This document shows positions 5,029 through 62,060 of a stretch of 64,000 nucleotides of DNA, in pieces. The position numbers and the translations under genes are program-made. The notes below the pieces were generated by a model. It did no database searches. It had not been told where the DNA came from and saw only the letters and a list, made by a program, of their open reading frames with translations. The first letter of the stretch is position 1; every line of letters begins with the position of its first letter. Source of the stretch: Pegea sp. RAD2-039 (taxonomy: Eukaryota; Chordata; Thaliacea; Salpida; Salpidae); contig JAQGEQ010000244.1 in assembly GCA_034620365.1 (NCBI GenBank), positions 434,001 to 498,000 on the forward strand, written 5' to 3'.

Positions 5029-5165
5029 ATCGACATATTGCCGATTTCAAAATTAACAAATGTTACTGCGGAGGTTCACTAACAGAAGAAAGTAGTGACT
5101 AATTCGATAAATTATTTCTCTCTTTTATCATGTTATTTCGATCTAGTATTTGTCAGGAGGAAAGT
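5029..5165 (+). repeat. Dispersed repeat core: hairpin plus CTAGTATTTGTC module
   Basis: The hairpin ATCGAC-ATATT-GCCGAT is at 5,029-5,045, and CTAGTATTTGTCAGGAGGAAA begins about 115 bases later at ~5,143. This is the two-part core of the dispersed family, forward orientation. One arm has a GCC for GTC change that weakens the pairing. The region is equivalent to 18,290-18,415, 31,751-31,866 and 47,281-47,415. Confidence 0.65.
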
Positions 5166-5676
5166 TATTTTCTATCTTTTATTTTTATCCAAACGTTTCA
5201 TTTATTAAAAACTGTTATACAATATTTATTTCTTTGACATCATTCTTATACAAGATTATATCTTACCTGTAGTTGCAAAATACTTTTTAGATTTAATTTT
5301 TCATGTAATTCTTGAAAACTAAATCTATTTAAAGTACTTTTTATCTGAAGCTAGTTTTATGAAGTTGAATATAACTTATATAAATACAAAAAATAATGTT
5401 TTGTAAGTTCAACGTATTTGAGCCAGACTATTCATCTAACAGATCTAAATAAAATTATCCATTAAATTGCTAACTTTACTAGCCATCTTAGACTAACAAT
5501 AAGACTTTATAAATTCTGATCAAAGTCAACGTTGTTAGATTAAATCATTAAAAATCAAGTTTAATGAAAGTTGCCTTAATTGAAAATTATACTTAAATTT
5601 TGTCATCTATACAGATCTTGTCGGAATACTTTCTTTCTGAATTTAATAAATTTAATGAATTAGAAAAAATTTGCAA

Positions 5677-5740
5677 AAACATAGCCTAAAGCAATAGAAG
5701 GTTTTTAAAATAATTTATCGGCAGCGACGTCTAGCGTCAA
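5677..5740 (+). repeat. ACATAGCC/GACGTCTAGCGTC conserved core, copy 1
   Basis: A roughly 65-base core begins AACATAGCC and ends with GACG-TCTAG-CGTC (5,726-5,738), which can form a 4-bp stem with a 5-nt loop. It recurs at 18,931, 21,902, 32,379 and 47,929, and inverted at 53,998 and 55,500. The core is richer in G+C and more conserved than the several hundred flanking bases, which also align weakly. It may be a small RNA or the conserved end of a mobile element. Confidence 0.5.
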
Positions 5741-6776
5741 AATTTTCGACTAAAAAATGAAAACCTAAAACAGTTTTTTTCTAATTTTATATAATAACGC
5801 TTTTAGTTAAACCAACAATTTTATTATTAGGTAAAGCCCTTTTCCGTAGATCAAGTTTTTATATTAATATTTTAGATCAATACAATTTATAAAGTAAAGT
5901 TTAATATTTTCTCACAAAAACTTAAGCTAAGAAGAAAACAAGAATGTTTTCGAAAAGACGAATTTATGTTTATAATAATTGTGACAGTAATAAGAAAAAC
6001 ATTTTATTGTCAACTAAGATTAGTAATCTGTGGAAAGTTGTTTAAACTCATATTCTTTGCAACTAGAAAAAGATTAAATTAAACTGTTAAGAAATCTTAT
6101 TTGGGTTGCAATTATAAAAATGCTAGTAAAAAAAGCCAAAAAAATTTCAGCAGATCATTTATAGACACGTCTTTTCACTTGAATAATTTGGGTTTTTTTT
6201 TAAACCATATAGTAAGTTAATTTTATAATCTTATTCCAAATTTTAAAAAAATATTTCTACAAAATGTTATTTCTTACAAGCAGATAGAAAGATATTAATT
6301 TCAACTTTCACAAAACGCTTTTGATTTTAAACATTTACACCACAAAATATTAACAATTAATTTTCAATAATTTGACTTTCCGATATAATTATGACTTTTA
6401 ATAAAACTTTGTTTAACAAATGTTGATCATCAAAAAAACTTTACTTAATTCTTGAACAAGTGTCACCGTAGAGTTCTTTTTAAAAAGTTTCGAAGCTGTA
6501 CATTGAGATTCAACTTTCTCAGGCATACCCTCTACAGTTTGGTTTTTGTGAAAAGTTTTTTAAGGATTTTATTCAATAATCTACCTAAATTTAAATACAA
6601 AAAACCAGATTATGAATTAGCAAACCTTTTCCAAATGCATACCAAAGGCATAAATTGATACTTTACTAGTTTGGTAATCATTCAAATAATTTCTTAAGAA
6701 CCTATTTAACATTGAAAGTCACATAAAAATAATTAACCTTTATTATGAAAGAATTTAAAAGAAACTTAATTTTTAA

Positions 6777-6795
6777 TATCGACCATTTGTCGATA
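6777..6795 (-). repeat. Dispersed hairpin TATCGAC-N5-GTCGATA (unit A, inverted copy)
   Basis: Perfect 7-bp arms (6,777-6,783 and 6,789-6,795) flank the loop CATTT. The following ATAATCCGA and the sequence ~110 bases downstream (a CAAATATTTG palindrome near 6,901) show that this copy is inverted relative to the one at 7,462. It is equivalent to 33,854 and 49,437. Confidence 0.7.
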
Positions 6796-7079
6796 GAATA
6801 ATCCGATAAATACAACTAGCAAAAACAGCAAACTTAAAAATTATAACTATTTGAATGTTTCAATTGAAATAATTAATTGACGTGATGATCAATTTGACAT
6901 CAAATATTTGTCGATATTATAGTTTTTGAATTATGAAAAAATTGTGGTTGTTCGATTACGTCACTATAAATTGAAGTGTTATTGATTAATGAAATAAGTT
7001 TTAACTAAATTCAAATTTCAAAATTATGCTTAAAATTCAATTCAGTTTGTCAGATTTTAACAAATATTTTCAAATTCAT

Positions 7080-8020
7080 TTTTCATGAATTGCTGGATAA
7101 TTTGAAATGATAGAAAAATCGAAAAAGTAATATAAACTAGAAATAAAGTTTTATTAAACTCACTACTTACAGTTCATTTGTTTATTGACTTTTTTACTAC
7201 CCACTAATTCTATTGATCTTCTCTAAAAAACAAATAGAAAAAATATTTTTAGGTAGTAATTCTTGTAACTTTTATTAATTCAAATCACCATCCTGTTGAA
7301 TACAATGACAAATAACAATTTCTTTAAAATTCAAAAACTATAAGATCGACAAATCTTTGATGACAAATTATAATTCACGAAATCTAATTTTTTGATTAAA
7401 ACATTCAAGCAGTTTTAAGTTTGAAAGTTTGTTCGAATTAATTCTTATATTTAGATTTATCTATCGACATATAGTCGATGTCAAAAATTTACAACAAATT
7501 TTTATGGCTTCTGAAATTAAGGAATATTTTTCATTATAAAAACGTTCCTTCATCTAGTATTTGTCCGGAGAAAAATAAATTTTTCGAAAATTATTATTCA
7601 TTTCATAAATTTGAACTATTTATAATAAGAAGAAAAATTTTGTGTGTCGAAAAAAAAGATAAGAACAAATTGTTGTTGCTAATTTTGATTAACTTATTTG
7701 AGATTTTTCTAATTTTCATTAAAACTATTTTTCGATATTTTTTAAGGTATGATTTGTAAGTTTGAAATCACTAAGTTGAGTCAATTTTTTGTAACCGACT
7801 ATTAATTTTTAATTACAAATCTCAATACAAGTGTTATTGAAAAAAGTAATAGAATGTTTTGTAAGGTCAAAGTCATTGAATAACACTATATGTCTAACAG
7901 ATCTAAGAATACAACATTTATAATTTTATCAAAAATGAGAATCAAACAGCACTAGCGACATCTTTTGACTGAAAAACTAGATAGAAAAATGCAATTATAT
8001 TTTACAAAATTTTTAATTTA
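7080..8020 (+). repeat. Near-complete forward copy of the dispersed repeat
   Basis: This copy shows the module order best. First comes a stretch containing CATGAATTGCTGGATAA (~7,085), then CCTGTTGAATACAATGAC (~7,292). The hairpin TATCGAC-ATATA-GTCGATG is at 7,462-7,480, and CTAGTATTTGTCCGGAGAAA is at ~7,553. AAAGTCATTGAATAACACTA is at ~7,870, and GACATCTTTTGACTGAAAAA at ~7,950. The 93-codon frame within it is open also in unit C but is made of repeat modules, so I do not call it a gene. The same order, inverted, is readable at about 55,770-56,310. Confidence 0.65.
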
Positions 8021-8761: not shown

Positions 8762-8833
8762 AGCAGAGTGGCGCAGCGGAAGCGTGCTGGGCTCATAACC
8801 CAGAAGTCGATGGATCGAAACCATAGTATGCTA
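8762..8833 (+). pseudogene. Initiator tRNA-Met (CAT) gene copy with a damaged 3' side
   Basis: Seventy-two bases match the eukaryotic initiator tRNA-Met. They include acceptor 5' strand AGCAGAG, box A TGGCGCAGCGG, anticodon stem CTGGG/CCCAG around loop CTCATAA (anticodon CAT), and T loop ATCGAAA (box B). The 3' acceptor strand is GTATGCT, so pairs 5 and 7 of the acceptor stem fail, and the last T-stem pair also fails. No run of T follows directly. The promoter boxes look intact, but the product would fold poorly. The sequence runs straight into the tRNA-His-like segment, so it is probably half of a tRNA-derived chimera rather than a working gene. Confidence 0.7.
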
Positions 8834-8916: not shown

Positions 8917-9315
8917 TTTCAATGATTGATTTATTGGTTTTCTTACAATTCATTCATATATTCTACTCTAATCTGTTGATATCAAAAAAGCTTGAGCTTA
9001 TCATGCAATATTTTTGTATTTACTTCTGAATGGTTGTCTAAACAAAGTTTTTTAGTTTATTTATCAATATTTTTTTATTAGATATGTTGAGTTTTGTATG
9101 TAAAATACAATTGTTATCTGAAAATTCATTAAATATAAAATAAAAACTAAATAACTTTAATTGAATTAAAACAGATACTAAATCAACTTGAGATTAAGTA
9201 GCTGTTGAAAAACAATTTCAATGAAATTTAAGGTTTGAACATTATTGTGACGTACAGAATACTAAAAAAACTACAAAAAACTTGTTTGCTTGTAAACACT
9301 TAACTTGTTTCAAAA

Positions 9316-9453
9316 TTAGGTTTGAAATTTCAATTTAAAAAAATCTTTCTTAATTGCATCATCTACTGGTTGGCTGATTTCAGATTTCTTTAAATGATTT
9401 AATTCTGATTTATAAAACCTTGTCATTTGAAGCCCTAAATATTCACTTGGTTC
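9316..9453 (-). pseudogene. Minus-strand exon-like frame EPSEYL…DDAIKK, copy A
   Basis: A 45-residue frame beginning EPSEYLGLQM and containing LNHLKKSE and QPVDDAIKK is open in all three complete units and differs mostly by residue substitutions. After DDAIKK the copies diverge by small indels, so the ends differ. No start codon is obvious. It reads like a decayed or partial exon. A related frame (ELSECLWFQMT…) lies about 860 bases away on the same strand. I recognise no family. Confidence 0.3.
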
Positions 9454-10228
9454 CAAAATACAAAATAATAGTTATGTTCTTTTACTAGATCATAAGAAAC
9501 TATATTGATATTTGTAGCTATTTATACATTTTTTATAGTTTTCCTGATTGAAGAACTCCTTATCTCAACTTTTCAATAATATCATTCTACTAAAAGGTTT
9601 GAGAATTCAAAATGACTTTTTTCATCGATAATAAAATTTATAATTTTTCACCATTATCTTCATTGGTACTTTAAGTTTTTTGTGTTTTGATATTGGTTGT
9701 TAATAAGCCTAATTTTAAATAAAACAATATTCATTTGCTTAACGAAGAAAAACAAACTAAAATCATGTACTTCCACAAATATTAAGATGAAATTGTTTAA
9801 GATGGATGTAATATCAAATTTAAAGTTTTCTACTAACATCTTTTAACTAACATTTTTACTTACTTATTAAGCTAATTAATTAAAAATTAATTCATTAAAA
9901 AGAATTAAAGTCTTAGTAATTCAAACAAAGCTTACTTGTTTAAAATACTTACGTTGAAAGTTTTATACTTTTAAAAGTTATATAATTAAAGATAAATTGT
10001 CAAGTCTAACGGCAAACACAAGGTTGGACTTAGCACAGGAAGACAAAACTTGTAATCTCTAACTTAATATTAGGAATGACTTCAAGTAATTTTAAAACAA
10101 CAATAATGAATGAAAATCAACCATTATTATGAATAGCTCTGTAACAAAAAAGTCAAAATTTTGTTGAAAACTCTAAATTCAAAGTTGAAATAATTATTTT
10201 ACAAAATAAATCTAGAAAAAGTTCTATT

Positions 10229-10315
10229 TTAATAAATATGAGATTGTTTATAAATTACATAGAAATTTAGATGTTGAAGATTTGTCATTTGAAACCATAA
10301 ACACTCACTTAGTTC
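10229..10315 (-). other. Paralogous relic of the EPSEYL exon-like frame
   Basis: The frame ELSECLWFQMTNLQHL aligns with EPSEYLGLQMTRFYKS at DNA and protein level, then diverges to a stop. It is repeated in units B (~23,780) and C (~37,490). It suggests a local duplication of an exon or repeat. The rest of 9,460-10,990 shows no gene; it is collinear in A, B and C. Confidence 0.25.
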
Positions 10316-10999
10316 TTCTATACAGATTTACAATTATGTATTTTCTTCGAAATTCTATTGAACAATTCTCATTCTAGCATTATGTGTAGCTTATTCTTTT
10401 TTATATCATTTCCGATCAAAAGTTTGTTCTTATTATTTTTTTATTTTCTGATCAAACATTTCACAAGCACACCAGCTACTGTTTGATTTATTTTATACTT
10501 ATTCAAAAGACTTAAAAATTAAAAATCATATTTTTGGGAAAAACTTACAAATAGAATTATAAATTCTTAATTGATTCCTCAATACGCAATCAGCTATCAA
10601 TATATCTAATATCTCCAAACTAACAGCTGTCATCGTCATTCTAAACATTTACTATTAGAAATTTTATTTATTTAGTTAATTATTATTTAAAACAATCCTA
10701 AGACTATTATGACGACCTCTGGAAATGTTAAGTAACTGACGATGAATAAAAACATCATTTAACTTTTACTATGTTTTCTTTTACTATATATTATCTTATT
10801 TTCATTGATAGTTTATATTTTAACTATGCCTCTATAATGTTCCAAACATTTATACATTGATTTTAAAATGTTGTACTCAACACATTTCTATTATCGTTTT
10901 GATCTTCATTAAAACATAATTTTAACCTTTTACCTGATAATTTCAACAAAGTTTTATAACTACTTAAAGTAAGCAATATTATTTTCTTTTATTTTTCAG

Positions 11000-11132
11000 T
11001 ACATTTTGTTTTATTAAGTAGCAAATGGAGGGTCACTTAGAGAAAACTAAAACTGAAACTGAAACACAAAACAATCAAACGTTGGAAAAGAAGTATGACA
11101 TTCATACATGTTATACTTATGTTACGCTATAA
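11000..11132 (+). pseudogene. Plus-strand terminal-exon-like frame, copy A (TAG present)
   Basis: A strong splice-acceptor-like TTTTATTTTTCAG ends at 10,999. The frame behind it contains MEGHLEKTKTE from 11,025 and stops at 11,130-11,132. In B and C the frame is open from the acceptor through FCYIKWQ; in A the Trp codon is TAG. A carries an extra in-frame Thr-Glu pair (6 bases). AATAAA at 11,221-11,226 would serve as poly(A) signal, lying within the end of the opposing gene. The upstream exons of this putative gene were not found. Confidence 0.35.
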
Positions 11133-11213
11133 GCATATACTACTAAAACACTTTATAAAAAACAGACAACAAATTTTATTTTTGATAAACATTAAAAGAG
11201 ACACAAGTCTATT

Positions 11214-15548: not shown

Positions 15549-15808
15549 ATGGACAACAAAAAAATTTATCGGAAGCGAAAGTTGTTATCAACTGAAAGTA
15601 ACATCGACAATGTAACATGAAAAAAGAAACATTCAAATAAATTATTTAATGCAGAGGATGGTTGGAACGAAATTATCGTTGATGAAATTACTTGTAACAA
15701 TGAAATAGAAAATATAACAAAGAAGAGTAATTCGTCAACCAAAAGTAATCAATCAGCAGAAGTAGTAAACGAAGAAAAAAAAATGTTTGCTTAAAAAGTT
15801 TCAAATTG
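15549..15808 (+). pseudogene. Zinc-finger gene remnant, copy B, fingers deleted
   Basis: Only the basic N-terminal part remains (MDNKKIYRKRK…). A TGA interrupts it after about 23 codons. At about 15,808 the sequence jumps from the codons just before finger 1 to the 3' flank, removing about 480 bases with all three fingers. A second deletion of about 1.2 kb removes the upstream region including the TATA-like box. Both breakpoints are identical in unit C, so the loss preceded the B/C duplication. Confidence 0.85.
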
Positions 15809-17424: not shown

Positions 17425-17742
17425 ATGGTTCATCAATATATATCTACAAATTGTTTATTTCAAAATCTTCTGCGTTTTGAAGAAGTAATACGTCTAATGT
17501 TTCATAATATTTCTTTTACTATCATCTCTTTCGATCTAATAATTGTTAAAACAAAAGTCTTTTTTATTAATTACATTCTCCTTTATAAGGTTGGTTTACT
17601 TAGAACTGTTAGAAAATGTTTTCCTTTGACAACAATTTTTAAATATTTTTTTTTACATTTGGATGGTTATTACTTTTTAGATTATAATTTTCAAAGGACA
17701 AGATCAAAAGTTGCTGTGAATATATTTTTCAATTCTGAATAA
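17425..17742 (+). other. Conserved 105-codon open frame, copy B (coding doubtful)
   Basis: Same frame as at 4,171, with only two residue changes by eye (D/N and N/F). Same doubts about coding. Confidence 0.2.
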
Positions 17743-18101: not shown

Positions 18102-18214
18102 AATGTAGTTTTTCTTCTCTTCATTTTATTTCAGAAAAGAAACCACCGTTTAGAACAAGAAAATATGATATATTTCATCTATTAAATACGTTGTGCTAAT
18201 TAATATATCTTCAT

Positions 18215-18490
18215 ATGTTAGTATTAATGACAAGAGTTGAAAATAATATATTTGCAGAATGTCAATTTTTTGATAAAATTATTCGACACATTACCGGTTT
18301 TAAAATTAACAAATGTTACTGCGGAGGTTCACTAACAGAAGAAAGTAGTGACAAATTCGAAAAATTATTTTTCTCTTTTATCATTTTATTTCGATCTAGT
18401 ATTTGTCAGGAGAAAAGTTATTTTCTATCTTTTATTTTTTTCCAAACGTTTCATTTATTAAAAATTGTTAGACAATATTTAAATCTTTGA
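18215..18490 (+). repeat. Dispersed repeat core, copy B, containing a chance 91-codon frame
   Basis: A frame runs through the hairpin (near 18,291, with loop and arm changes) and the CTAGTATTTGTCAGGAGAAA module (~18,397). Its equivalent is interrupted in A and C and shorter in D, so it is not a conserved gene. Confidence 0.55.
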
Positions 18491-18992: not shown

Positions 18993-21901
18993 AAATTTTT
19001 CGACTAAAAAAACAAAAACCTAAAACAGTTTTATTCTAATTTTATATAATAACGCTTTTACTTAAACCAACAATTTTATTATTAGGTAAAGCCTTTTTCT
19101 GTAGATCAAGTTTTTATATTAATATGTTAGATCAATACATTTTATAAAGTAAATTTTAATATTTTCTCACAAAAACTTAAGCTAAGAAGAAAACAAGAAT
19201 GTTTTCGAAAAGACGAATTTATATTTATAATAGTTGTGACAGTAATAAAAAAAACATTTTATTGTCAACTGAGATTATTAATCTGTGGAAAGTTGTTTAA
19301 ACTCATATTCTATGCAACTAGAAAAAGATTAAATTAAACTGTTAAGAAATCTTATTTGGGTTGCAATTATAAAAATGCAGGTAAAAAAAGCCAAAAAAAA
19401 TTCAGCAGATCATTTAAAGACGCGTCTTTTCACTTAAATAACTCGGGTTTTCTTTTAAACCATATAGTAAGTTAGTTTTTTTTATCTTATTCCAAATTTT
19501 TCGACAAAATGTTTTTACAAAATGTTAGTTCTTACAAGCAGACAAAAATATATTCATTTCAACTTTCATAAAACGCTTTTCAGTTTAAACATTTTTACCA
19601 CAAAATAATAATAATTAAGTTTCAATTATTTGACTTTTCGATATAGTTATGATTTTTTATAACACTTTGTTTAACAAATGTTAATCATCAAAAAAACTTC
19701 ATTCAATTGTTGAACAAGTATCATCGTAAAATTCTTTTTAACGAATTTCGAAGCTGTACATTGAGATTCAACTTTCTCAGGCATGCCATCTACAGTTTAG
19801 TGTTTGTGAAAAGTTTTTGAACGATTTTATTCAATAATCTACCTAAATTTATAAAATAAAATAAATCTATAAAATCTGTAAAATAAAAAAATCAAACATA
19901 AAAATGAAACAGAGACATTTTGTCACTGGAAAAAGTAGTAGATAAAAGATTTTTTATGTTTCACTGACACACAATAGCATAATGCGAACAAAGATGTTAT
20001 AATTAAAAATCAAATGAAAATTGAAAATCAAGTCAAGTAATATTATCAATGAAACATTCAAAGCAATTTTAAAATTGAAAGTTTGCAGTTATTTTTTTGA
20101 TACAATTATCGGATTACTTTATAGACACATAGTCGATATCAAAAATAGAAATCTGTTTCAGATCTTGCAATGAAAGTTAGGAAACACTTCTTGATATAGT
20201 AATAGATTTTCATCTTGTATTTGTCTAGAAAAGATTTAAAATCTAGACTTATATTTGAAAGTTAGATTTTTAACAACTGTGTGATATTTTTTTTTCTTTT
20301 GATATCAATATTATAAAAAAATTATTTCCTACTTCTTATTACATAATACATTTCAGTTTTAAAATTTAAAATGATTTCAAACTAACACTATTACAAATAC
20401 CTTTTTATGTTGATTTTATTGTATGAGTATCAAAAAACCTTGAATGAATTTTAAAAAAGGAAGTTTTGCTAGATAGATACAAAATTCTAAATAGAAATGA
20501 TAGAATTGTACACAAAATTTACTTGGATTGAATTTACAAAAATTAACGTTTTCATTTAATTTAATGAATTTAAATGAATTAATAACTTATATATATACAA
20601 TAATTTTATACATTATTTATAAACTATTGTCTACTACATAGTGCTTATTCAAAATTAGTTTTCAACTTTCCAAGAATTTTTTAAAAGTAAAATTATTACA
20701 AATAGTTTCTATGTGAAGCTCATTGTTTGACTTTTAATAAAACTGATATAAATATTAAAAAGGAATGTACTGGAATCCTAAAGTCACTGAGCAACACTAT
20801 TTGTCTAGTAGACATAAGAGTACAAGAATTCACAATTTCTTTAGATATAAAGATAAAACTATTATAAAGTATAGATGTTGTGTTTGAAGATTGAAAAATT
20901 AGACAAATAAAAAAATATTTTTAATTTCTATTAATGTTAAGTTTTTTCATGAATCGCTTAATAATTTGAAAAAGTTAAAAGTAAAATTTATAAGCATAAA
21001 AATAAACAAATAAAAATTCTATTAATAATTATTGCTAATTTACTAAATTTATTTATTGACTATTTTGCTACCCACTAAATTTACTCATTTTCTTTAAAAA
21101 AACAAATTAAAAAAATAATTTTAGGAGTAATCTTTGTAAGTTCTTGTAATTCGAGTCACTTTCCTGTTGAATACAACGACAAAAAACAATTTCTTCAAAT
21201 CTCCATTATTATTTTTTCTACAAACAAATATTTGATATCAAATTGTAATTCACGAAATCTAATTTATTATTTGAAATATCCAATCAGTTTTAAATTTGAA
21301 AATTAGTTTGAATTAATTTTCAATTAATTTATCGACAATGGTCGATGTCCAAAATTTATAAATGATTGATTAGCGAATGTTTTGTAACCGAGGAATATTT
21401 TTCATTATAAAAACGTTTTTTTCATCTTGTATTTGTCTGAAAAAAATATTTTTCAAAAATTATTTTTTATTTCATAAATTTGAATAAATTTTAATCATGA
21501 GATTAATTTTGTATGTTGACAATAAAGAAAAAAACAAATTACTTTTACTAATTTTGATTACTTTATTTAAGATTTTTCTAATTTTGATCGAAATTATTCC
21601 TTTATATTTTTAAATAAACTCAAATACAATGAAAATTAAAAACGTTTTTAATCGGCAGCATCTACCAAAATAAAATAGTAGATAGTTTGATAGATTTTTA
21701 TTACATAAAAATTTATGTTAAAAAGTGTTAAGTTACTTTACATTTAAAATAAAAAAAATAATTTCCTAAAAAAATTTTAATTTTGTTTGATACGAAAAAC
21801 TACTTGTTAAGATAGTTTTGTTTTCAATTTAAACATATTTATTCGTAATTTCAACAAAGTTTGAAAATAAGTCTTAAAATTCTAGTTATCAAATATCACT
21901 T

Positions 21902-31750: not shown

Positions 31751-31866
31751 AATCGACACATTGTCGATTTCAAAATTAACAAATGTTACTGCGGAGGTTC
31801 ACTAACAGAAGAAATTATTTCTCTGTTTTATCATTTTATTTTGATCTAGTATTTGTCCGGAGAAAA
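31751..31866 (+). repeat. Dispersed repeat core, copy C
   Basis: Hairpin AATCGAC-ACATT-GTCGATT (31,751-31,769), then CTAGTATTTGTCCGGAGAAA from about 31,846. The arms are perfect 7-bp but with outer A-T pairs swapped relative to TATCGAC/GTCGATA, so pairing is kept although the sequence changed. Confidence 0.65.
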
Positions 31867-33853: not shown

Positions 33854-33872
33854 AATCGACCATTTGTCGATA
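33854..33872 (-). repeat. Dispersed hairpin AATCGAC-CATTT-GTCGATA
   Basis: Inverted copy equivalent to 6,777; the outermost pair is now A-A. The upstream ~33,400-33,770 holds a further repeat with CATTCAAACTATCCTGCAAT (near 33,649), which recurs at ~49,230 and ~53,360. Confidence 0.65.
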
Positions 33873-34159: not shown

Positions 34160-35100
34160 TCATGAATTGCTGGATAATTTGAAATGATATAAAAATAGAA
34201 AAAGTAATATAAACTAGAAATAAAGTTTTATTAAACTCACTACTTACAGTTACTTTGTTTATTGACTTTTTTACTACCCACTAATTTTATTGATCTTCTC
34301 TAAAAAACAAATATAAAAAATATTTTTAGATAGTAATTCTTGTAACTTTTATTAATTCAAATCACCATCCTGTTGAATACAATGACAAATAACAATTTCT
34401 TTAAAATTCAAAAACTATAAGATCGACAAATCTTTGATGACAAATTATAATTCACGAAACCTAATTTTTTGATTAAAACATTCAAGCAGTTTTAAATTTG
34501 AAAGTTTGTTCGAATTAATTCTTATATTTGGATTTATCTATCGACATATAGTCGATGTCAAAAATTTACAACAAATTTTTATGGTTTCTGAAATTAAGGA
34601 ATATTTTTCATTATAAAAACGTTCCTTCATCTAGTATTTGTCCGGAGAAAAATATATTTTTCGAAAATTATTATTCATTTCATAAATTTGAACTATTTAT
34701 AATAAGAAGAAAAATTTTGTGTGTCGAAAAAAAAGATAAAAACAAATTGTTGTTGCTAATTTTGATTAACTTATTTGAGATTTTTCTAATTTTCATTAAA
34801 ACTATTTTTCGATATTTTTTAAGGTATGATTTGTAAGTTTGAAATCACTAAGTTGAGTAAATTTTTTGTAACCGACTATTAATTTTTAATTACAAATCTC
34901 AATACAAGTGTTATTGAAAAAAGTAATAGAATGTTTTGTAAGGTCAAAGTCATTGAATAACACTATTTGTCTAACAGATCTAAGGATACAGCATTTATAA
35001 TTTTATCAAAAATGAGAATCAAACAGCTCTATCGACATCTTTTGACTGAAAAACTAGATAGAAAAATGCAATTATATTTTACAAAATTTTTAATTTAAAG
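34160..35100 (+). repeat. Near-complete forward copy of the dispersed repeat (unit C)
   Basis: Collinear with 7,080-8,020. The hairpin TATCGAC-ATATA-GTCGATG is at 34,539-34,557, with the CTAGTATTTGTCCGGAGAAA module starting about 90 bases later at ~34,630. The 93-codon frame across it differs from the unit A one by only two residues; I still regard it as repeat sequence. Confidence 0.65.
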
Positions 35101-47280: not shown

Positions 47281-47415
47281 AATCGACACATTGCCGATTT
47301 CAAAATTAACAAATGCTATTGCGGAGGTTCACTAACAGAAGAAAGTAGTGACCATTCGAAATATTATATCTCTCTTTTATCATTTTATTTCGATCTAGTA
47401 TTTGTCAGGAGAAAA
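47281..47415 (+). repeat. Dispersed repeat core, copy D
   Basis: Hairpin AATCGAC-ACATT-GCCGATT (47,281-47,299) and CTAGTATTTGTCAGGAGAAA from ~47,395. It lies inside an 81-codon frame that I do not consider a gene. Confidence 0.6.
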
Positions 47416-48554: not shown

Positions 48555-49436
48555 AGTTAGTTCTTACAAGCAGACCGAAAGATATTCATTTCAACTCTCA
48601 CAAAACGCTTTTCAGTTTTAACATTTTTATCACAAAATATTAATAATAAATTTTCCATAATTTCACTATTCGATATAATTATGACTTTTAATAAAACTTT
48701 GTTTAACGAATGTTGATCATCAGAAAAACTTTATTCAATTCTTGAACAAGTGCCACCGTAAAATTCTTTTTAAAGAATTTCGAAGCTGTACATTGAGATT
48801 CAACTTTCTCAGGCATGCCATCTACATTTTGGTTTTTGTGAAAAGTTTTTGAACGATTTTATTCAATAATCTACCTAAATTTAAATACAAAAAAAACAGA
48901 TTATGAATTAGCAAACCTTTTCCAAATGCATACCAAAGGCATAAATTAAGACTTTACTAGTTTGGTAATCATTCAAATGATTTCTTCTCCTGAAAAAACA
49001 GCTTCTAATGATATAATACTTTTTTACTATGAAGTTAGTGAATTCAAAGTTTAAATTAGTTTTACTTTTAGAAAGTCTTCTTATCTAGCATAAACAAAGG
49101 CTTGTTAGCTTAAAGCACACTAAACATTCATTAGAAATGATATTACATTTTAATAAAGAAATTAGCACCAGAAAACAAATGTTTAATTATATGCTTGAAT
49201 TATATAGTTATTTGTTTATATTTTTATATCCATTCAAACTATCCTGCAATTTAAAAAAAAGAATTTAAAAATATTAATGAGTCAAATTACAAGATCGAAG
49301 AATTACTAAAAATAATCATCAATCAACGACTTGTCAAAGATAACTAAAAATTAATTAAGAACCTATTAAACATTGAAAGTCACATAAAAAAATTAGTCTT
49401 TATTATGAAAGAATTTAAGACAGATCTAATTGTTAA

Positions 49437-50290
49437 TATCGACCATTTGTCGATAGAATAATCCGACAAATACAACTAACAAAGAACAGCAAACTTAAAA
49501 TTTAAAACTACTTGAATGTTTTAATTATAATAATTAATTGACGTGATGATCAATTTGACATCAAATATTTGTCAATATTATAGTTTTTGAATTTTGAAAA
49601 AATTGTGGTTTGTCGTTGCATTCAATTGGATAGTGACTTGATTTAATAAACTTACGATGATTACTAACTAAATGATTTATTTAGAATATCAATTAATTTA
49701 TTGGGTAGCAAAGTAAAACGATAAAATTTTCATAAAATAGCGATATTAAATGAAATTCCTTTTTTCAATTTTAGAATTATAATTGTACCAATAACTTGTC
49801 GGTGATGTAATTAGAAAGTTGTAGTTTGTTTATCGTAGTTAACCAGTTTAAAATCAAACTTTCTCCTATTTTTGATTAGTGCCATTAAAGAAGGTAATAT
49901 TTTAATTTGTTTAGTCTTACTATTAGTTATTAATGGTTTATTTGAGTAGAGTTAATTCGTTTTTTTTTCATTCTTTGTTGTTTTAACTTCTTTCAATGAA
50001 ATAAATCAAAGATACTTTATCTTAGAAAATTTACACAACAAACGAAGAAGAAACTATCTTTACATAATTATTGCAAACTTAAACTGCAAATTTAAAAATA
50101 TTCTAACGTTATTCTTGCGAATGTCAAACAAATTTAAAAGCTTTTTATTTTGTTAAATTACTGTTTTCAACTGAAAAATTATAATTTGAGTTGCTTTATT
50201 TGCTAATGTGAAATTTTGTGAAAAGAAAAACATTACGGATGAAAATTTAAAAAGTTTAAATAGAAAGTTGAAGACAGTTTCATTCAAATC
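49437..50290 (-). repeat. Inverted copy of the dispersed repeat, paired with ~60,967-62,060
   Basis: Begins with the perfect hairpin TATCGAC-CATTT-GTCGATA (49,437-49,455). From ~49,580 it aligns with ~61,110-62,060 over stretches such as GTGGTTTGTCGTTG, ATCAATTAATTTATTGGGTA and CCAGTTTAAAATC. Near 49,786 ACCAATAACTTGTCGGT is a decayed version of the hairpin that is intact at 61,325. This is the point where the macro-unit array ends. Confidence 0.65.
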
Positions 50291-52880
50291 ATAACAACAA
50301 CATATCGACGCTATACTTAAAATAAAAACAAGTCTCTAAAGCAAATTCAGTGAACTGGAACTTTTCGTCTGGTATGAAGTTTAATTTGATTTGATAAATA
50401 AAATATGAGATGAAAATAAAACATTTGGCTTAAAAACTACTGTATCAAGAAGTTTATGAACTATCTAAAATTGTAATCACATCAAAACTAAGATATCAAA
50501 CTTTTATTAAAATAGCAGAATTAACAACTTTAGTTTTCACCTCTGTATGTAATAGAAATTAATTTTAGAAATATTTAAGAGGATGCAATTGTAATAAAGT
50601 TGAAGAATAAAACAATTTTAAAGACATTCTAGTGTTTCAACTTAAAGTAAAAAGAACAATAAGAACAATTATTTAGAAATCTTCTAGATTTTTAAATTTG
50701 AAAAAACGAATAATAATAAAAATCAAATTAAGATTAATTTAATTTTCTCTTTAAAACTTTTAATATTTTAATCAAACATTATTATTTACTATTTTATTTT
50801 CATGCAAATTATGTATCAGTAATGTTGTTTTTTAAAAATTTTTATAAATGTTAAATATACTATTATATGTCAGTGAAATAAATAAAAACCTTTTATTCAC
50901 TACTTTTTTTCAGTCACAAGATGTCTCTGTTTCATCATCACAATCGATTTTTTTATCTTATAGAATTAGTGTTTTGTGTTGAGATCTGTAGACATTTAGT
51001 TTTTCTTACTAACTTTGAGCTTACAAGAAACTATATTTAAATTTTAAGAAACAGTTTTATCTAAAATCATCTTATTTTTTTCACAACGAAAATACTTTTA
51101 ACTCATTTTAGTGATAAGAAATCTCTTAAAACTTAGTTTTGAAACTAATTTTAGAGAAATTAAGAATTACCAAATAGTAAAAAGATAATTGACATTTTTT
51201 TAGAATACAAAACATGTTTTCGTTGTCCCAAAAAAAAAAGAAGCTTATACAGAAAATTGAATTTTGAAAAGTCAGTTTTGTCCGGACAAATACTAGATTG
51301 AACTTAATTAATATATATATAAAGAAATATCAATTAGCGACTTGTTGGTCTAGTCACTAGTCCAAAATCACCCATTTGAAGTCGACAAACGTGTCGATGT
51401 CCTTAAAACAAATTAGTTGTAATTGGTTAGTAACCTTGTCTCTGAAAACTTCATGAAATTCAGAATAATTGTATAACCGCTGAAAACATGTATTTTGTCG
51501 ATAGGATAGCTTAGGATTTTTTAATAAGTTCAAACAATATTTCAACAAACAATGAAAACTTTGATTATAGATAAAAGGAATTAAACAATTTGAATAGCTA
51601 GTTTTTGTAACTTTTATTTATTGGTAATTTTGTTAGCTAATAAATTTAAAAGTATTTTAGAAAGTGTTTAAAATATAATTATTGTATTTAGTTAGTTACT
51701 TTGGGTGAAAATTAATAAATAATATGTGTGGATATTATAAAATATCTTAAACTAAGTATCATTATAATATTTTTGTTATTGACATTTGCCAAAGATCTAA
51801 CCGTTAAGATGTAATTTTAAAGCTGCAAGCTATATCATGAGTTAATTAGTAACTTTTTATAGTTAAACTTTCTGATAATCAACATATAGCTAATTTCAAA
51901 TTAAAGTTTGTACAAAATTGTGTTTGGCTTTAAGAATTTTTCTTTGTTCTAATTGAACCAAAAACTGCAAGTCTTAGAAAGGCTAATTTATAAGGTTGTT
52001 TTTTCCTACGTTGGCCTGGATAAGAAATTTGTATCTCTTGCGTCATTTTTAAATCTGATAATCTCATTTGAATTATAAGCATAATTTTGAAATATGAATT
52101 TAGCTAAAGACTATTTCATTACTCAACAATGTCTTAATTTATAGTGACGTAATCGAACAAGTTGATTTTGATCAAAAAATTAAAAGGTTTTACTGTTATT
52201 GTTAGATGACTTACACAGTTATAAAATTAAAACTAAAATAATTTTTTGTGTTGCTAATATAAGCAAAAACATCTAACTACAACTTTCTCGTTCGCAAATT
52301 TTTAAACTCAAATTGTTTTTTTAAATTTGATGTAACAAATTGTAGGATTTTAAACAAAAGATTTCATTTTGCTGAAGTTATCAATTATTTCGATATTTAT
52401 TATCAGGTATATTTTGAAGGTTTATTTTATATGTTTTCTATTGATATGAAGTATTCTAAAATTAAACTTTAAACTATATAAACTAAAAGAAATATTTGTA
52501 ATTTGTTTTAATTTTTATTGAAATTAGTTTATTTAACCTTTGAATTTAAAACAATTAAGAAAATGGTTTTGTTTTAATATTAAATTTATAATCATAAGAT
52601 TTCTCTACTATAAATTCATTTTTAAATTATTTATAAAATTTTTTTAAATGTTGCGTCTTACTGTCGGTTATCAAATTTTAAGTTAAATCAGTGACTTCGA
52701 ATTTCCAAAATACGTTTTTAAAAATATGCAAAAATACTTTCAGTCTAAATTAGAAAATATCAAATAAGGTATTCAAAATTAGCAAAAGCAATTTGTTTGT
52801 AATTATTTTTGTCAACATACAAAACTATTCTTTTTATTATGAATAAGTCAAATTTGTGAGAAAGAGAATAATTTTCGAAA
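50291..52880 (-). repeat. Decayed dispersed-repeat sequence, no gene
   Basis: Modules recognisable in inverted orientation are CAGTCACAAGATGTC near 50,913, and a 14-bp palindrome TTTGTCCGGACAAA at 51,277-51,290 continuing into TACTAGATTG. Also present is a hairpin-like TCGACAAACGTGTCGA at 51,382-51,397. The 63-codon minus frame at 51,357-51,548 overlaps this hairpin and is not a gene. Stretches between these modules show nothing. Confidence 0.5.
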
Positions 52881-52888: not shown

Positions 52889-53520
52889 TTCTCCGGACAA
52901 AAACTAGATTAAAAGGAGTTTTTATTATGAAGAAAGTTCTTCTGTATAAGATTGGACTTTCTATTAAGATGCTTATTTTTGGTATCGACCATTTGTCGAT
53001 AAATTAATGCGAAGATTTATACGGAGAAACACAAACAAATATTCAAAGTTACAACATCTTGATTGTTTCAATTAATAAAATTAAACTCCGTGAATTGCAA
53101 TTTGGCATCAAATGTTTGTCGATTTTATACTTTCGAAACTTTAAAGAAATTGTTATTTGTTGTTGTATTCAACGGGATAATAATTTGAATAATTAAAAGT
53201 TACGAGAATAACTACCTGAAAATATTTTTTTTATTTGTTTTTTATAGAAGATCAATAGAGTTAGTTGGTAGCAAAGTAGTCAATAAACAAAGTAACTGTA
53301 AATAGTGAATTAAACAAAACTTAATTTCTACTTTAAAATTACTTTTAATATTTTTATATCCATTCAAACTATCCTGCAATCCATGAAAAACAAATTTAAA
53401 ATTATTAGTTAAATAAATTGCAAGATCGAAGAATCACTAAAACTTACTATCAATCAACAACTTGTCAAAGATAACTGAGTCTCACCACTACTCTTCTGCA
53501 TTTTTTTATGTAAACTATTA
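52889..53520 (-). repeat. Inverted dispersed repeat with intact hairpin
   Basis: CTCCGGACAAA…CTAGATT near 52,892, then TATCGAC-CATTT-GTCGATA at 52,983-53,001, then TTGTTGTATTCAACGGGATA near 53,158. At 53,350-53,480 the CATTCAAACTATCCTGCAAT and CTTGTCAAAGATAACT segments match ~33,649-33,760 and ~49,230-49,345. Confidence 0.65.
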
Positions 53521-55769: not shown

Positions 55770-56310
55770 ATCTGTCAGACAAATAATTTTTCTCAATGAC
55801 TCAGACCTTACAAAACATTCAAACACTTTTCTCAATAATCCTTGTATTGAAATCTGTCAATAAAAACTGATGGACGGTTACAAAAATTTGACTCAACTTA
55901 GCGACTATGAATTTCCAAAGCATAAATTTTAAAAAATATCCTGAAAAAATTTTGACCGAAATTAGAAAAATCTCAAATAAGTTAAATAAAATTCGTAAAA
56001 GCAATTTATTTTGTTTTTATTGTCAACATATATAAAACTATTCTTATGATTCTAAATAATTTAAATTTTTTTAATGACTAATAATTTTCAAAAATAATTT
56101 TTCTCCGGACAAATACTAGATGAAACAACGCTTTTATAATTAAAAATGTTTAGTTATCATTGCTTAACAGTGATGAAACATTAATTTTTGATATCGACTA
56201 CTCGTCGATAGATTAATCCGAAAATAAAAGCTAACAAAATTAAGTTTACTTTCAAATTTAAATCTGCTTGGATGTTTCAATTAATAGAATTACATGGCGT
56301 GAATATCATT
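55770..56310 (-). repeat. Near-complete inverted copy of the dispersed repeat
   Basis: In minus sense the order is as at 7,462-7,870: hairpin TATCGAC-TACTC-GTCGATA (56,192-56,210), CTCCGGACAAATACTAGAT (~56,104), then the GACTCAACTTAGCGACT stretch (~55,890) and AATGACTCAGACCTTAC (~55,795). The loop sequence differs from all other copies while the arms are perfect. The 61-codon frame at 55,819-56,004 is part of this repeat. Confidence 0.65.
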
Positions 56311-56349: not shown

Positions 56350-56865
56350 TTTATTATTTGATTTATTTATATAATATTTAAGCTTTATCTTTTTATAATG
56401 ACAACCATGTTAATATATAAACGAATCACTTTTTTCAATTAAGAATTATTAATAAAAACTAAATCTTTATTCATTACTTTTAAAGGTCAAAGAACATTTC
56501 ACATATGAACAAATCTTTTCATTTTCATCCAATGAAATTTTATAAAAGTTTCAGTTTAAAGTTTAATATACTAAACTTTAATAAAAGTGAGACAAAATGC
56601 AAATAGTTTGTTCAAGTCAGGTTTACTCAGAATCTTACTGAATTGACAAGAAAAATTAAATAAAAAGTTTAAAAGGATAATTATAGAAAAGTTATCAATC
56701 AGATACAAACTTATATACTTGCGTGAAACATTTTCCACATAATGAAATTTCAAATTTGTTAATAATTCTTAAGTGAAAAAGTGATTTATTTATATATTAA
56801 CATGGTTGTCAGTATAAAATTATAAATCTTAAATAATAAATAAATCAAATAATATAACCCTATTA
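56350..56865. repeat. Fold-back element with ~105 bp inverted arms
   Basis: The left arm (~56,350-56,457, with GACAACCATGTTAATATAT) is the reverse complement of the right arm (~56,759-56,865, with ATATATTAACATGGTTGTC), with few mismatches, around a centre of ~300 bases. The centre holds a perfect 8-bp hairpin AAAGTTTA-N6-TAAACTTT (near 56,557-56,578) and an inverted copy of the sequence starting the 1 kb tandem repeat. A non-autonomous DNA transposon of the fold-back type is a fair reading. No transposase is present. Confidence 0.6.
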
Positions 56866-57436
56866 AGACTATATTTTATATGTTGAATTATTTATCTAAA
56901 TAAAATTACTTTTAGCAATTAAGTAAGTTTCAATAAAATTGTTCATTATACTGAGTATTTAGTTTTAACCCACCATTAGTGCCTATTTAACTGATTAAAT
57001 AAGTAGATCTTGGCGTTTTCAGGCTTTAGCGTTGTAAAGCGTCTTTTGCTTGGTTTTATAATTTCTAAGATGAATTTTAATAACAGCATGTCTTTTATGA
57101 TTTTATTTTTAAAATATTTACATTCAGGTTTTACCACCAGTTTTGAAAAATTTCTAGTGTATATAAAAAACATTTATGCTCAGTAAAAAAAAACAATACA
57201 AAATACGATTTAAAGTTCTAATAAATTATCATTTCTTAACTTTTATTGAAGCAATGCGCTGTTATCTACTTAATAACATTTTTAACGTTGTAGAAGGATG
57301 TTTATGTTGCGTTAAATTAAAACCAAATCTTTTTCAGTCTTACAAACTAATTTTAAAATATACTAAGTAAAATATACTAAAATATACTAAGAAGAAATTT
57401 CAATCAAATTCTACCTTGTCAATTCATTAAGATTCA
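56850..57436 (+). repeat. Diverged partial copy of the 1 kb tandem repeat
   Basis: Aligns with ~57,820-58,436 over most of its length (for example ACTGAGTATTTAGTTTT and AACAGCATGTCTTTTA), with substitutions and small indels. It shows that the 1 kb unit existed before the perfect duplication that follows. Frames at 56,976-57,173 and 57,176-57,370 lie inside it and are not genes. Confidence 0.7.
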
Positions 57437-58436
57437 GAGTAAACCTGACTTGAACAAAATATTTGCGATTTGTCTCACCTTTATTAAAGTTTAGTAGATA
57501 AAACTTTAAATTGAAATTTTTGTAAAATTTATTTGTATTTTACTATTTATTTTTCAGTCACAAGATGTCACTATATTAGTCGTATGTTTATATTTTATAA
57601 TTTTTATAAACGTTGCATTCTCCTATCTTTCAGACTAATAGTGTTACTCAGTGACTTTGAGCTTACCAAGCACTGTGTAGTAAAATTTATACAAGTTTTA
57701 TTTATATCCTACAAAAAGCTTTTCATAAACCGTATTTGTAAAAGTCTTAGTTTTACAAAATCATTAAACACTTTAAAACAGCAGTCAGTAACAACCATTA
57801 GAAAGATTAAATACACAAAATAATGAAAACCGTAATAAGACTATATTTTATTTGTTAAATTATTAAAAAAAAATTACTTTTAGCAATTAAGCAAGTTTCA
57901 ATAAAATTGTTGATTATACTGAGTATTTAGTTTTTAGCCACCATTAGTACCTATTTAATGGATCAAATGAGGGGATTTTGGCGTTTTCAGGTTTTCTCTT
58001 TGTAAAGCGTCGTTTGCTTTGTTTTATGATTTCTAAGATGAATTGTAATAACAGCATGTCTTTTAGGATTTTATTTTTAAAATATTTACATTCTGGTTTT
58101 ACCACAATTTTAGAAAAATTTCTAGTGTATATAATAAAATTTATGCTCTGTAAAAAAACAATAAAAAATACGATCTAAAGTTCTAATAGATTATCATTTT
58201 TTTTTTTATTGAAGCAATGCGCTGTTATCTACTTAATAACATTTTTAATGTAGTGGAATGATTGTTAAAAGTTGTTAAATGTTGTGTTAAATTAAAACCA
58301 AATATTTTTCAGTCTTACAAACTAATTTTAATCAACTGTTTGTATGTTACATAAATAGGTTAAAAAAAAACATTACTTAAAATATACTAAGAAAAAATTT
58401 TAATCAAATTCTACCTTTTCAATTCATTCAGATTCT
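57437..58436 (+). repeat. 1,000 bp tandem repeat, copy 1
   Basis: Identical at every base I compared to 58,437-59,436, offset exactly 1,000; identity runs on to 59,458. It contains, inverted, the family modules CAGTCACAAGATGTC (~57,556) and AGTGTTACTCAGTGACTTTG (~57,640). The frames of 96 and 66 codons inside are duplicated with it and have no coding support. Confidence 0.95.
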
Positions 58437-59436
58437 GAGTAAACCTGACTTGAACAAAATATTTGCGATTTGTCTCACCTTTATTAAAGTTTAGTAGATA
58501 AAACTTTAAATTGAAATTTTTGTAAAATTTATTTGTATTTTACTATTTATTTTTCAGTCACAAGATGTCACTATATTAGTCGTATGTTTATATTTTATAA
58601 TTTTTATAAACGTTGCATTCTCCTATCTTTCAGACTAATAGTGTTACTCAGTGACTTTGAGCTTACCAAGCACTGTGTAGTAAAATTTATACAAGTTTTA
58701 TTTATATCCTACAAAAAGCTTTTCATAAACCGTATTTGTAAAAGTCTTAGTTTTACAAAATCATTAAACACTTTAAAACAGCAGTCAGTAACAACCATTA
58801 GAAAGATTAAATACACAAAATAATGAAAACCGTAATAAGACTATATTTTATTTGTTAAATTATTAAAAAAAAATTACTTTTAGCAATTAAGCAAGTTTCA
58901 ATAAAATTGTTGATTATACTGAGTATTTAGTTTTTAGCCACCATTAGTACCTATTTAATGGATCAAATGAGGGGATTTTGGCGTTTTCAGGTTTTCTCTT
59001 TGTAAAGCGTCGTTTGCTTTGTTTTATGATTTCTAAGATGAATTGTAATAACAGCATGTCTTTTAGGATTTTATTTTTAAAATATTTACATTCTGGTTTT
59101 ACCACAATTTTAGAAAAATTTCTAGTGTATATAATAAAATTTATGCTCTGTAAAAAAACAATAAAAAATACGATCTAAAGTTCTAATAGATTATCATTTT
59201 TTTTTTTATTGAAGCAATGCGCTGTTATCTACTTAATAACATTTTTAATGTAGTGGAATGATTGTTAAAAGTTGTTAAATGTTGTGTTAAATTAAAACCA
59301 AATATTTTTCAGTCTTACAAACTAATTTTAATCAACTGTTTGTATGTTACATAAATAGGTTAAAAAAAAACATTACTTAAAATATACTAAGAAAAAATTT
59401 TAATCAAATTCTACCTTTTCAATTCATTCAGATTCT
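58437..59436 (+). repeat. 1,000 bp tandem repeat, copy 2
   Basis: Exact copy of the preceding unit. The first differences from copy 1 are at 57,436/58,436 on the left and 58,459/59,459 on the right, which bounds the duplicated tract. Confidence 0.95.
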
Positions 59437-59700
59437 GAGTAAACCTGACTTGAACAAATTATTTGCGATTTGTCTCACTTTTTTTAAAGTTTAGTACATT
59501 AAACTTTAAATTAAAACTTTTGTAAAATTTATTTATATTTTACTATTTATTTTTCAGCCACGAGATGTCACTATATTTGTCGTTTGTTTATATTTTTTTA
59601 TTTTATAAACGTTGTATTCTCCTACCTTTCAGAAAAATAGTGTTACTCAATGACTTTGAGCTTACCAAAGATTGTTTATTTAAATTTATACAATTTTATG
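59437..59700 (+). repeat. Truncated, diverged third copy of the 1 kb repeat
   Basis: Begins like the perfect copies, then accumulates substitutions (TCAGCCACGAGATGTC for TCAGTCACAAGATGTC) and stops matching after about 260 bases. Confidence 0.75.
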
Positions 59701-59759
59701 TATAATCATACAATTAGCTTACATTTTTCTCGAAACATAATATTGGAATTGAAAAATGT

Positions 59760-60110
59760 TCAATATTACACTCAACTCAGTGACTTCGAACTTCCAAAAC
59801 ATATTTTGAAAAATATCCAGTAAAAGTTTCGGCAAAAATTAGAAAAATATCAAATAAGCTAATCAAAATTAGCAAAAGCAATTTGTTTTTATCTTTTTTG
59901 GGAACATACAAATTAATACTTACGATTATGAATAAGCAAACTTACGAAATGAGGAAAAATTATTTACGAAAGATATCTTCTCTCCGGACAAACACTAGAT
60001 ATAAAGTAGTTTTTATTATGAATAATATTCCTCAGTACGCATATACATAGACTTTATAACTGTAACAATTTTTGATATCGACCATTTGTCGATAGATTAA
60101 TCCGAATAAA
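59760..60110 (-). repeat. Inverted dispersed repeat with intact hairpin
   Basis: ACTCAACTCAGTGACTTCG near 59,770, CTCCGGACAAACACTAGAT near 59,983, and hairpin TATCGAC-CATTT-GTCGATA at 60,076-60,094. Part of it (CGAACTTC…CATTTTCATAAATATTCAG) is repeated again at ~60,126-60,300. Confidence 0.65.
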
Positions 60111-60309
60111 TCTTAATTTAAATTTCGAACTTCAAAAAACACATTTTCATAAATATTCAGAAATAGTTTCGACCAAAATTAGAAAAATCTCGAATAAGAT
60201 AATTAAAATTACTAAAAACATTCCTTATTTCGTTTAATTTTTGTATTTTAGGGTCGTTTACAAAATTGTAACTTAAATTAGTGATTTGAAACTTCCAAAA
60301 CATTTTGTA

Positions 60310-60860
60310 TTTTTTAATTGAAAAATAATAGTAATTTGCTTCTAGTCGTAAATCATTGACTGATAGATGTTTGAAAAAAAAGAAGAATTTTCGTTGATGT
60401 TTGTTTTCCTATTTACTGGAAGCTTTTACGTAATTTTTAACGCCGTAATTATAATATGTTTGTTGAAATTATAGTGATCATAAAATTTCATAAATATTGC
60501 TTGGTTGTATCTTAAGATAGCAAATTATTTAGAAATAACAATTGATATACTGTTTCCTTTTTGAAAATCTTTTTTCGATTTGTCTTATACTTAGTACTAT
60601 GAATTTTCATAATTGCTTCTTCTTTGACACTTTAATTTCCTAATATAGAAAGTCATGCCTAGGATAAATTTAGAAAAATATTTAATGTTCGTATAAAATT
60701 TATATGTTTTGTTAAAGTTATGGGAAGTTTAGAACTAAAATGTATTTCTCACCTAAAAGTAGGAAATAATTTTTCTATAAGATTGATATCTAAAGTAGAT
60801 AAAAAGCGTCGCACAGTTTTAAATAAATCAAACTTTTAAAGATAAATGAATATTTATAAT
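60310..60860. other. Repeat segment shared with 54,490 and 63,530; no gene
   Basis: Contains GTAATTTGCTTCTAGTCGTAAATCATTGACTG-type sequence and TTTTCGTTGATGTTTG, matching ~54,545-54,720. After ~60,550 I see nothing but AT-rich sequence. Confidence 0.5.
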
Positions 60861-60867
60861 TTGGTTT

Positions 60868-62060
60868 TCCTCCTGACAAATACTAGATGGAAAGATATTT
60901 TTATATCAAGTTTTTGGGTTTTGGTCTACGAGATTAAAGTGTCCTTGTATTTTTGGTTATTTTTGATATCGACTATGTGTCGATAGATTGTCCTGGTAAT
61001 TGCAACTAAGAAATAACAGAAAACTTTCAAATTTAAAAGTTTTTGATTTTTTTACATAATAAAATTACTTGACGTCATGTTCAGTTTGACACCAAATATT
61101 TGTCGATATTATAATTTTTGAATTTTCAAGAAACTGTGGTTTGTCGTTGTATTCATTGGGATAGTGATTTGATTTACAAAATCTACGGTGATTACTAACT
61201 AAAGGAATTTGTTTCTTAGAATATCAATTAATTTATTGGGTATCAAAATGATTAAAAGTAAAATTACTATAAACTAACGATAGTAAGCTAAAACTTTTTT
61301 CTTCTACTTTAGAATAACAATTGTACCGATAACTTGTCGGTGATGTAGTTGGAAAGATGTAACTTAGATTTAGTAATTAACCAGTTTAAAATCTAACTCT
61401 CTCCTATTTTTGAATAGAGCCATTTAAGAAGGTATCATTTTAATTTGTTATTCTTATCATTTGTTATTAGTTATAATTTTATTTGAATAGAGTTATTTGG
61501 TTATGTCCATTCTCTGTTTTTTTAACTTTATTTAATAAAATAAATCAAAAATATTTTATATTAAAAAATTTAAACAACAAACGAGGATGAAACAATATTT
61601 ACAAAAAAATATTGCAAACTTTTACTGTAAATCTAAAACTACTTGAAACAGAAGTTGATAACTAACCTTAGAAGTATTTTGAAAAAAGTTTATTTTGTCA
61701 ATTTAATTATTCGCTTCGGCAAAAAAAAATATTTTTTTTATTTTGTCAGCAAATGCAGTTCAACATTTAAAATGTCAACAACTGGCTTTCAGATTTTTCA
61801 TTATTTATAGTGTTTAAATAATCATTCAAATCTTAACTCCTGGTAATAACTATTTGAATCATTCTTATATTTGTTAATGATTAAAAAGTTCTTTTGAAGT
61901 TTATTTAACCTCATGTTTTGGTTTCAACTTTCATTAGTTGGAAATACTAAATTCTAACGTAAAATTGTGACTGTAAAGCAAATTAAAACGCTTATTTTTC
62001 TTTTATTATTGTTTAAAAAAAACAGTTTGAGTTGCTTCATTTGCTAATGTTAAATTGAGG
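60868..62060 (-). repeat. Inverted dispersed repeat carrying a second type of hairpin
   Basis: CTCCTGACAAATACTAGAT near 60,870, then TATCGAC-TATGT-GTCGATA at 60,967-60,985. Near 61,325-61,341 ACCGAT-AACTT-GTCGGT forms a second hairpin, again with a 5-nt loop and one G-T pair. The long flank aligns with 49,580-50,220. Confidence 0.65.

Follow-up and report, generated by a model that had tools for sequence, protein, structure and literature searches.

The U7 small nuclear RNA (snRNA) is described, in passages of one account, as an RNA of about 60 bases with a target-pairing 5' end, an Sm-type site and a 3' terminal stem-loop, its substrate specificity being set by the 5' end (PMC7026596). In engineered U7 SmOPT RNAs, as outlined in part of a second source, a chosen antisense 5' end of 20-45 bases is followed by AAUUUUUGGAG and a stem-loop, and expression is placed under a U1 promoter (PMC11232981). 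Sections of a third source describe the nematode 21U PIWI-interacting RNA (piRNA) genes as clustered units with SNAPc-motif promoters, one for each variable RNA (PMC6436959). Here we analysed a stretch of 64,000 nucleotides from the salp Pegea sp. RAD2-039 (assembly GCA_034620365.1, contig JAQGEQ010000244.1, positions 434,001 to 498,000; the window), in which an initial annotation had reported about 15 short hairpins of the form TATCGAC-N5-GTCGATA. Most of these hairpins are probably the 3' stem-loops of predicted short (mostly 48-61 base) Sm-class snRNA genes, whose 5' ends are likely to be antisense guides.

The hairpin motif, or a degenerate form of it, is present at all 15 positions that had been named, and with up to three mismatches it was found 16 times in the window, against 0.80 expected and a maximum of 4 in 100 shuffles. 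Six stems in the window are perfect (6777, 49437, 52983, 56192, 60076 and 60967), and 226 exact stems were counted in the genome (105.7 Mb, 387 contigs), where the same pattern read backwards gave none. The description of kept arms and mostly 5-nucleotide loops holds overall, with exceptions at 7462, 33854 and 34539, where the outermost pair is broken, at 20120, where an inner pair is broken, and at 21330, where the loop has four bases. The copy at 51382, previously called irregular, belongs to a sister subfamily, and an additional decayed copy at 539 had been overlooked. The double change of the outer pair noted at 31751 is real; the duplicates of this copy (5028 and 47281) share it, and so do some of the arrayed copies on contig C60. 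Since eight of the window copies are linked by self-matches of more than 2 kb into three groups (5028/31751/47281, 6777/33854/49437 and 7462/34539), the copies are not all independent.

It is the promoter element, the Sm-type site and the hypervariable segment, none of them seen in the initial annotation, that carry the meaning of the hairpins. In an alignment of 13 copies a left block was followed by some 30 bases that align poorly, the core ATTTTTGA-stem-loop-GATTAAT and a right block; within the left block a strongly conserved element, TTTTCTCCGGACAAATACTAGAT, was followed by an A/T-rich box. The arrangement is gene-like, running from a 19-base element CTCCGGACAAATACTAGAT through a predicted start, variable bases and an Sm-type site to the 7-bp stem. 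The element has the same core and register as the proximal sequence element (PSE) in the U1 and U2 genes of the same genome, for which 19 matches (18 above the cut-off) and 19 matches were found, respectively. Upstream DNA, examined at all 12 U2 loci that were fetched and at 11 of the 12 for U1, carries a CAAAYA-type element (core ACAAAYACTA / GCAAAYACAA), whose C lies 53-54 bases upstream of the start, together with an A/T-rich box around -32 to -25. The counterpart of this core in the hairpin family is ACAAAYACTAGAT, again with a similar A/T-rich box, whereas the flanking promoter bases differ and the RNA sequence of U1 and U2 is otherwise unrelated to that of the family.

For quantitative comparison 86 distinct sites with no more than two arm mismatches were collected from the window, from 30 loci similar to one 821-base copy (40 of 276 candidates scored) and from 24 loci on contig C91 with an exact stem, a sample that is non-random and contains many segmental duplicates. 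The promoter element (at least 14 of 17 positions) was present in 65 of these sites, beginning 87-100 bases upstream of the stem, and the remaining 21 scored 12 or less. The 10-mer ACAAAYAC(T/A)A, common to the U1 and U2 genes, occurred 49 times in the 86 left flanks at 82-93 bases from the stem, compared with 0.4 in shuffles. When the start was placed 53 bases past the C of the element, as the U1/U2 register dictates, the 65 promoter-bearing sites gave RNAs of 48-61 bases, relatives such as 5028 and 47281 being longer, and the PSE-type element came to lie at about -60 to -42. In 61 distinct promoters the element shows an information content of 0.9-3.2 bits; this falls to about 0.4 over the 12 bases that precede the predicted start and to about 0.08 over the next 20, so that in the aligned sequences conservation drops to background level where the RNA is predicted to begin. 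The same 10-mer was also seen seven times in the right flanks, always at +11, as a promoter-like ACAAATACAA immediately past the stem that might be a signal for 3' processing or a remnant of a tandem duplication.

Between the variable segment and the stem lies an Sm-type site with the consensus AUUUUUGA/G, and TTTTG(A/G) stands directly upstream of the stem in 54 of the 65 promoter-bearing sites. The Sm context of this genome's own U2, GAGUUUUUGGAA, resembles that of the family, while its U1 has AAUUUCUUAC instead. Sites that lack the promoter element retain the Sm-type site less often (9/21 versus 54/65; Fisher p 0.001), and these are probable pseudogenes; since the 21 fall mostly into two duplication groups, the number of independent decay events is small. 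In minimum-energy folds at least five of the seven stem pairs formed in 55 of 60 distinct RNAs, or in 36 of 60 by a stricter rule, and in 66 distinct rows 96.1% of stem cells were paired, versus 94.5% after shuffling.

Selection on the dyad, which had been proposed from the window alone, is supported by divergence between copies. In 27 disjoint pairs with a mean flank divergence of 7.3%, arms differed at 10 of 378 positions (2.6%), a rate that is biased low because sites with more than two arm mismatches fall outside the sample; the promoter element differed at 25 of 513 (4.9%) and the loops at 11 of 135 (8.1%). Three origins had been offered for this pattern, namely a protein-binding palindrome, a signal of a mobile element and an RNA hairpin, and the last fits best, the other two less well. 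If the palindrome were an untranscribed DNA site for a dimeric protein, such as a regulator, an insulator or a replication factor, then conserved arms around a variable centre would be expected, as is observed, and the arm changes are mostly one-sided and leave the bases unpaired. Such a site gives no role to a promoter element at fixed distance, to a T-run of Sm consensus, to the fading of conservation at the start or to a hypervariable segment on one side only, and we consider it improbable.

The variable segment itself comprises 20-33 bases that differ between copies. Identity in the stretch from -11 to -30 was 74-76% where the flanks were 85-93% identical and 83% where they exceeded 93%. 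In the 27 disjoint pairs the segments differed at 84 of 603 aligned positions, with a further 135 gap positions, and in 18 closer pairs, which share ancestry, divergence was 0.18 versus 0.037 in flank windows with gaps counted in both (Wilcoxon p 0.0004). The segment therefore evolves about five times faster than its flanks in these close pairs, exceeding every flank window in 9 of the 18, and in some pairs at 4-6% flank divergence it was replaced wholesale.

A variable stretch beside a conserved hairpin might also be read as target DNA flanking the ends of a transposon with terminal inverted repeats or a miniature inverted-repeat transposable element. This model was first prompted by some convergent hairpin pairs that lie about 700 bp apart and show inverted similarity over about 175 bp, and by the exchange of left and right flank types at the core. 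It was dropped because the left block resumes past the variable segment at a near-constant distance in the 65 promoter-bearing sites, unlike target flanks; moreover, a scan of three reading frames in the window showed no transposase, inspection of ten pairs by eye gave no convincing target-site duplication, and several of the copies in the window lie within long duplications, so that this origin appears very unlikely.

T-runs can stop polymerase III, and the run before the stem is a possible stop of this kind. One alternative is that the loci are SNAPc-driven, piRNA-like units whose product is limited to the 20-33 variable bases; the T-run would be the terminator, and the stem a pause or termination signal in the DNA. 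This would be in keeping with nematode piRNA genes, which in sections of PMC6436959 are reported to use snRNA-derived promoters, to lie in Mb-scale clusters and to make short, variable products. On the other hand, a terminator would need less than the AUUUUUGR consensus and the stem, and a search of the genome for the nematode cuticle collagen (PF01484) gave no match, a weak absence as no control genome was matched; we regard such units as unlikely. Spliced-leader RNA genes with variable leaders would share the Sm-class layout, the multiple copies and the clustering. Since GT is absent from 14 of the 65 variable segments and GT(A/G)NG from 63 of 65, there is no consistent splice donor, and leaders of this sort are highly improbable.

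The family was also approached from the promoter side. There are 322 exact promoter elements genome-wide and none of the reversed control, and with the exact stems above the family, as judged from sequence matches, numbers hundreds of promoter and stem copies. The 100 promoter elements listed lie on contigs C3 (2), C60 (11), C89 (1), C91 (61) and C95 (25), and 65 stem matches with TA-starting loops were all on C91, C95, C103, C254 and C266, ending at 177 kb on C254 (626 kb); the copies listed, located by these matches, thus cluster on few contigs. On C91, where 61 elements were compared with 47 exact stems, 33 of the elements had a stem in register, against 0.3 at random. Forty promoter-anchored loci were then defined, comprising all 14 listed elements on C60, C3 and C89, together with 26 of the 28 listed C91 elements that have no exact in-register stem. 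An Sm-type T-run with a stem of at least six of seven pairs was present in 31 of them (3.1 in shuffles), and GTCGA in 35 (1.2 in shuffles).

The C60 loci L082-L092 (326-562 kb), with L095 on C89, form a sister array of promoter-element genes that mostly have longer and more similar 5' ends and the stem AATCGAC-AATCT-GTCGAT(T/A). At L093 and L094 (C3, 493 kb and 500 kb) an exact promoter element leads into unlike sequence without an Sm-type run or stem, and these are perhaps another snRNA-type gene. On viral contigs five promoter-element matches were found, none of which, by eye, leads to a stem.

Several observations weigh against the interpretation as Sm-class guide RNA genes. Nine of the 40 promoter-anchored loci fail the rule of Sm-type run plus stem: two on C60, where the stem is visible by eye and the T-run is broken, the two on C3, where the sequence is different, and another five on C91. 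Among five window RNAs the fold z-scores were modest, from -0.96 to -1.68, and for the RNA at 52951-53001 the minimum-energy fold lacks the stem. The covariation that was suggested as a check yielded thin compensatory change, with one of the seven pairs (UA to AU, in 4 rows) changed on both sides, and most departures from the stem are merely unpaired. The Sm-type site does not evolve more slowly than the flanks (15/216, or 6.9%, versus 7.3% in the 27 pairs), and 4 of the 18 close pairs show no difference in the variable segment. For 39 variable segments compared with 0.16 Mb of DNA, complementarity was not above chance: with three own or paralogous sites set aside, the longest local target match was 14, and shuffles reached 17. 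Finally, a strict U1/U2 weight matrix does not separate the family from control flanks: its top match is in register in 39 of 86 sites, and the one site that passes the 99th percentile of the controls does so out of register. As the strict matrix fails to single out the family, the element must be called related to the U1/U2 element in core and register, not identical to it.

Among the closest described systems, U7 (Rfam RF00066) resembles the predicted RNAs in size and layout. It has one 5' sequence, for histone pre-mRNA, whereas the family has many different 5' ends and not the single conserved histone-complementary one of U7. The U7-type Sm site is unlike the spliceosomal type, and it is the latter that the family resembles. 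RF00066 gave no match at gathering score in the window and none at E up to 5 in eight further loci; in a genome search in which 65 of 61209 candidates were scored, the top score was 23.1 bits against a cut-off of 34, and none of the candidates scored lay on C60, C89, C91, C95, C103, C254 or C266. With the whole of Rfam at gathering score, a tRNA was the only match in the window, and the eight further loci gave one chance match (E 2.8). Engineered U7 SmOPT RNAs share the layout, but they are man-made, while the family is a predicted natural multigene set. The promoter logic resembles that of nematode 21U piRNA genes, the Sm-type site and stem-loop being what the family's layout has in addition. 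The family is most likely a set of predicted U7-like Sm-class RNAs with hypervariable 5' ends that would serve as guides.

In the proposed mechanism SNAPc would bring RNA polymerase II to the promoter element, AUUUUUG(A/G) would be the loading site of an Sm ring, and the 3' end of the RNA would be marked or protected by the stem. By analogy with U7 and the engineered U7 SmOPT antisense RNAs, the 5' end may base-pair with a target RNA; its fast turnover could then be a sign of diversifying selection or of guides being replaced through recombination, as might happen in an arms race against repeats or rival transcripts. To our knowledge, the Sm-class snRNAs known so far are few and conserved, each with a fixed partner, and, judging from the listings of searches aimed at such a family in the open-licence literature of PubMed Central, none of the present kind is described there. 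We put forward only tentatively that the salp may possess a natural antisense small nuclear ribonucleoprotein library, in which hundreds of U7-like RNAs with individual, rapidly replaced guides, encoded in a few large clusters, would form an RNA-guided nuclear system that blocks or redirects its targets, apart from RNA interference, piRNAs and small nucleolar RNAs. If true, a scaffold that is held while its recognition end is rapidly renewed would constitute a new route to guide RNAs, and a natural counterpart of the U7 SmOPT constructs used for splice-switching.

The members of the family in the window are given in Table 1. At two of the probable pseudogenes a degenerate second stem, CATCAAA-N5-GTCGATA, was observed about 120 bases past the first (6898 and 33975), and a related CATCAAA motif occurs in the right flank of 34 of the 86 sites.

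Table 1. Promoter elements, predicted RNAs and decayed copies in the window
Feature	Position	Strand	Remarks
PSE-like promoter element of 52951 gene	52891..52909	+	1 core mismatch
Predicted RNA	52951..53001	+	23-base variable 5' end, Sm-type site UAUUUUUGG, stem-loop 52983-53001; start from U1/U2 register
PSE-like promoter element	56103..56121	+	
Predicted RNA	56163..56210	+	stem-loop 56192-56210
PSE-like promoter element	59982..60000	+	
Predicted RNA	60042..60094	+	stem-loop 60076-60094
PSE-like promoter element	60870..60888	+	
Predicted RNA	60930..60985	+	stem-loop 60967-60985
PSE-like promoter element	51280..51298	+	sister-subfamily gene
Predicted sister-subfamily RNA	51340..51398	+	stem GTCGACA-AACG-TGTCGAT, weak Sm-type site
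PSE-like promoter element	7552..7570	-	
Predicted RNA	7462..7510	-	stem-loop 7462-7480, outermost pair broken
PSE-like promoter element	34629..34647	-	
Predicted RNA	34539..34587	-	duplicate of 7462 gene
PSE-like promoter element	20212..20230	-	1 core mismatch
Predicted RNA	20120..20170	-	one stem pair broken
PSE-like promoter element	21424..21442	-	1 core mismatch
Predicted RNA	21330..21382	-	4-base loop
PSE-like promoter element	31844..31862	-	
Predicted RNA	31751..31802	-	both outer-pair bases changed (AATCGAC...GTCGATT)
PSE-like promoter element	47393..47411	-	
Predicted RNA	47281..47351	-	longer 5' part, one stem pair changed
PSE-like promoter element	5141..5159	-	
Predicted RNA	5028..5099	-	longer 5' part, one stem pair changed
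PSE-like promoter element	18394..18412	-	gene with decayed stem (~18282-18300)
Old copy	539..594	-	promoter element and stem decayed
Stem without promoter element	6777..6795	+	Sm-type site changed, probable pseudogene
Stem without promoter element	33854..33872	+	probable pseudogene
Stem without promoter element	49437..49455	+	Sm-type site AATTGTTAA, probable pseudogene

The window holds large tandem duplications about 92-97% alike, at 9037-19864 and 22516-33312, with pieces at 1144-6695, 36191-41934 and 43387-48986. These carry an orphan gene of 779 amino acids, open at 38392-40731 and interrupted at 11214-13550 and 24680-27019, as well as a C2H2 zinc-finger gene (43993-44604). The 779-amino-acid protein has no Pfam match and its predicted structure was unusable (predicted local distance difference test score, pLDDT, 33); two unnamed homologues were found among 7992 scored candidates. 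A ciliate code was rejected, since the 38 frames of at least 200 amino acids under table 6 mostly read through many stops, and a 781-amino-acid frame holds one, its own. Exons with matches to BBS5 and a chondroitin transferase point to an animal. Searches for insect receptors (PF02949), arthropod cuticle (PF00379) and COX1 gave no match; the first two absences are weak, since no control genome was matched there either. A 1-kb unit is present in three tandem copies at 56831-59720 (about 76-98% alike). A tRNA-Met gene lies at 8762-8833, with a duplicate near 35.9 kb that has a changed anticodon base and was not called.

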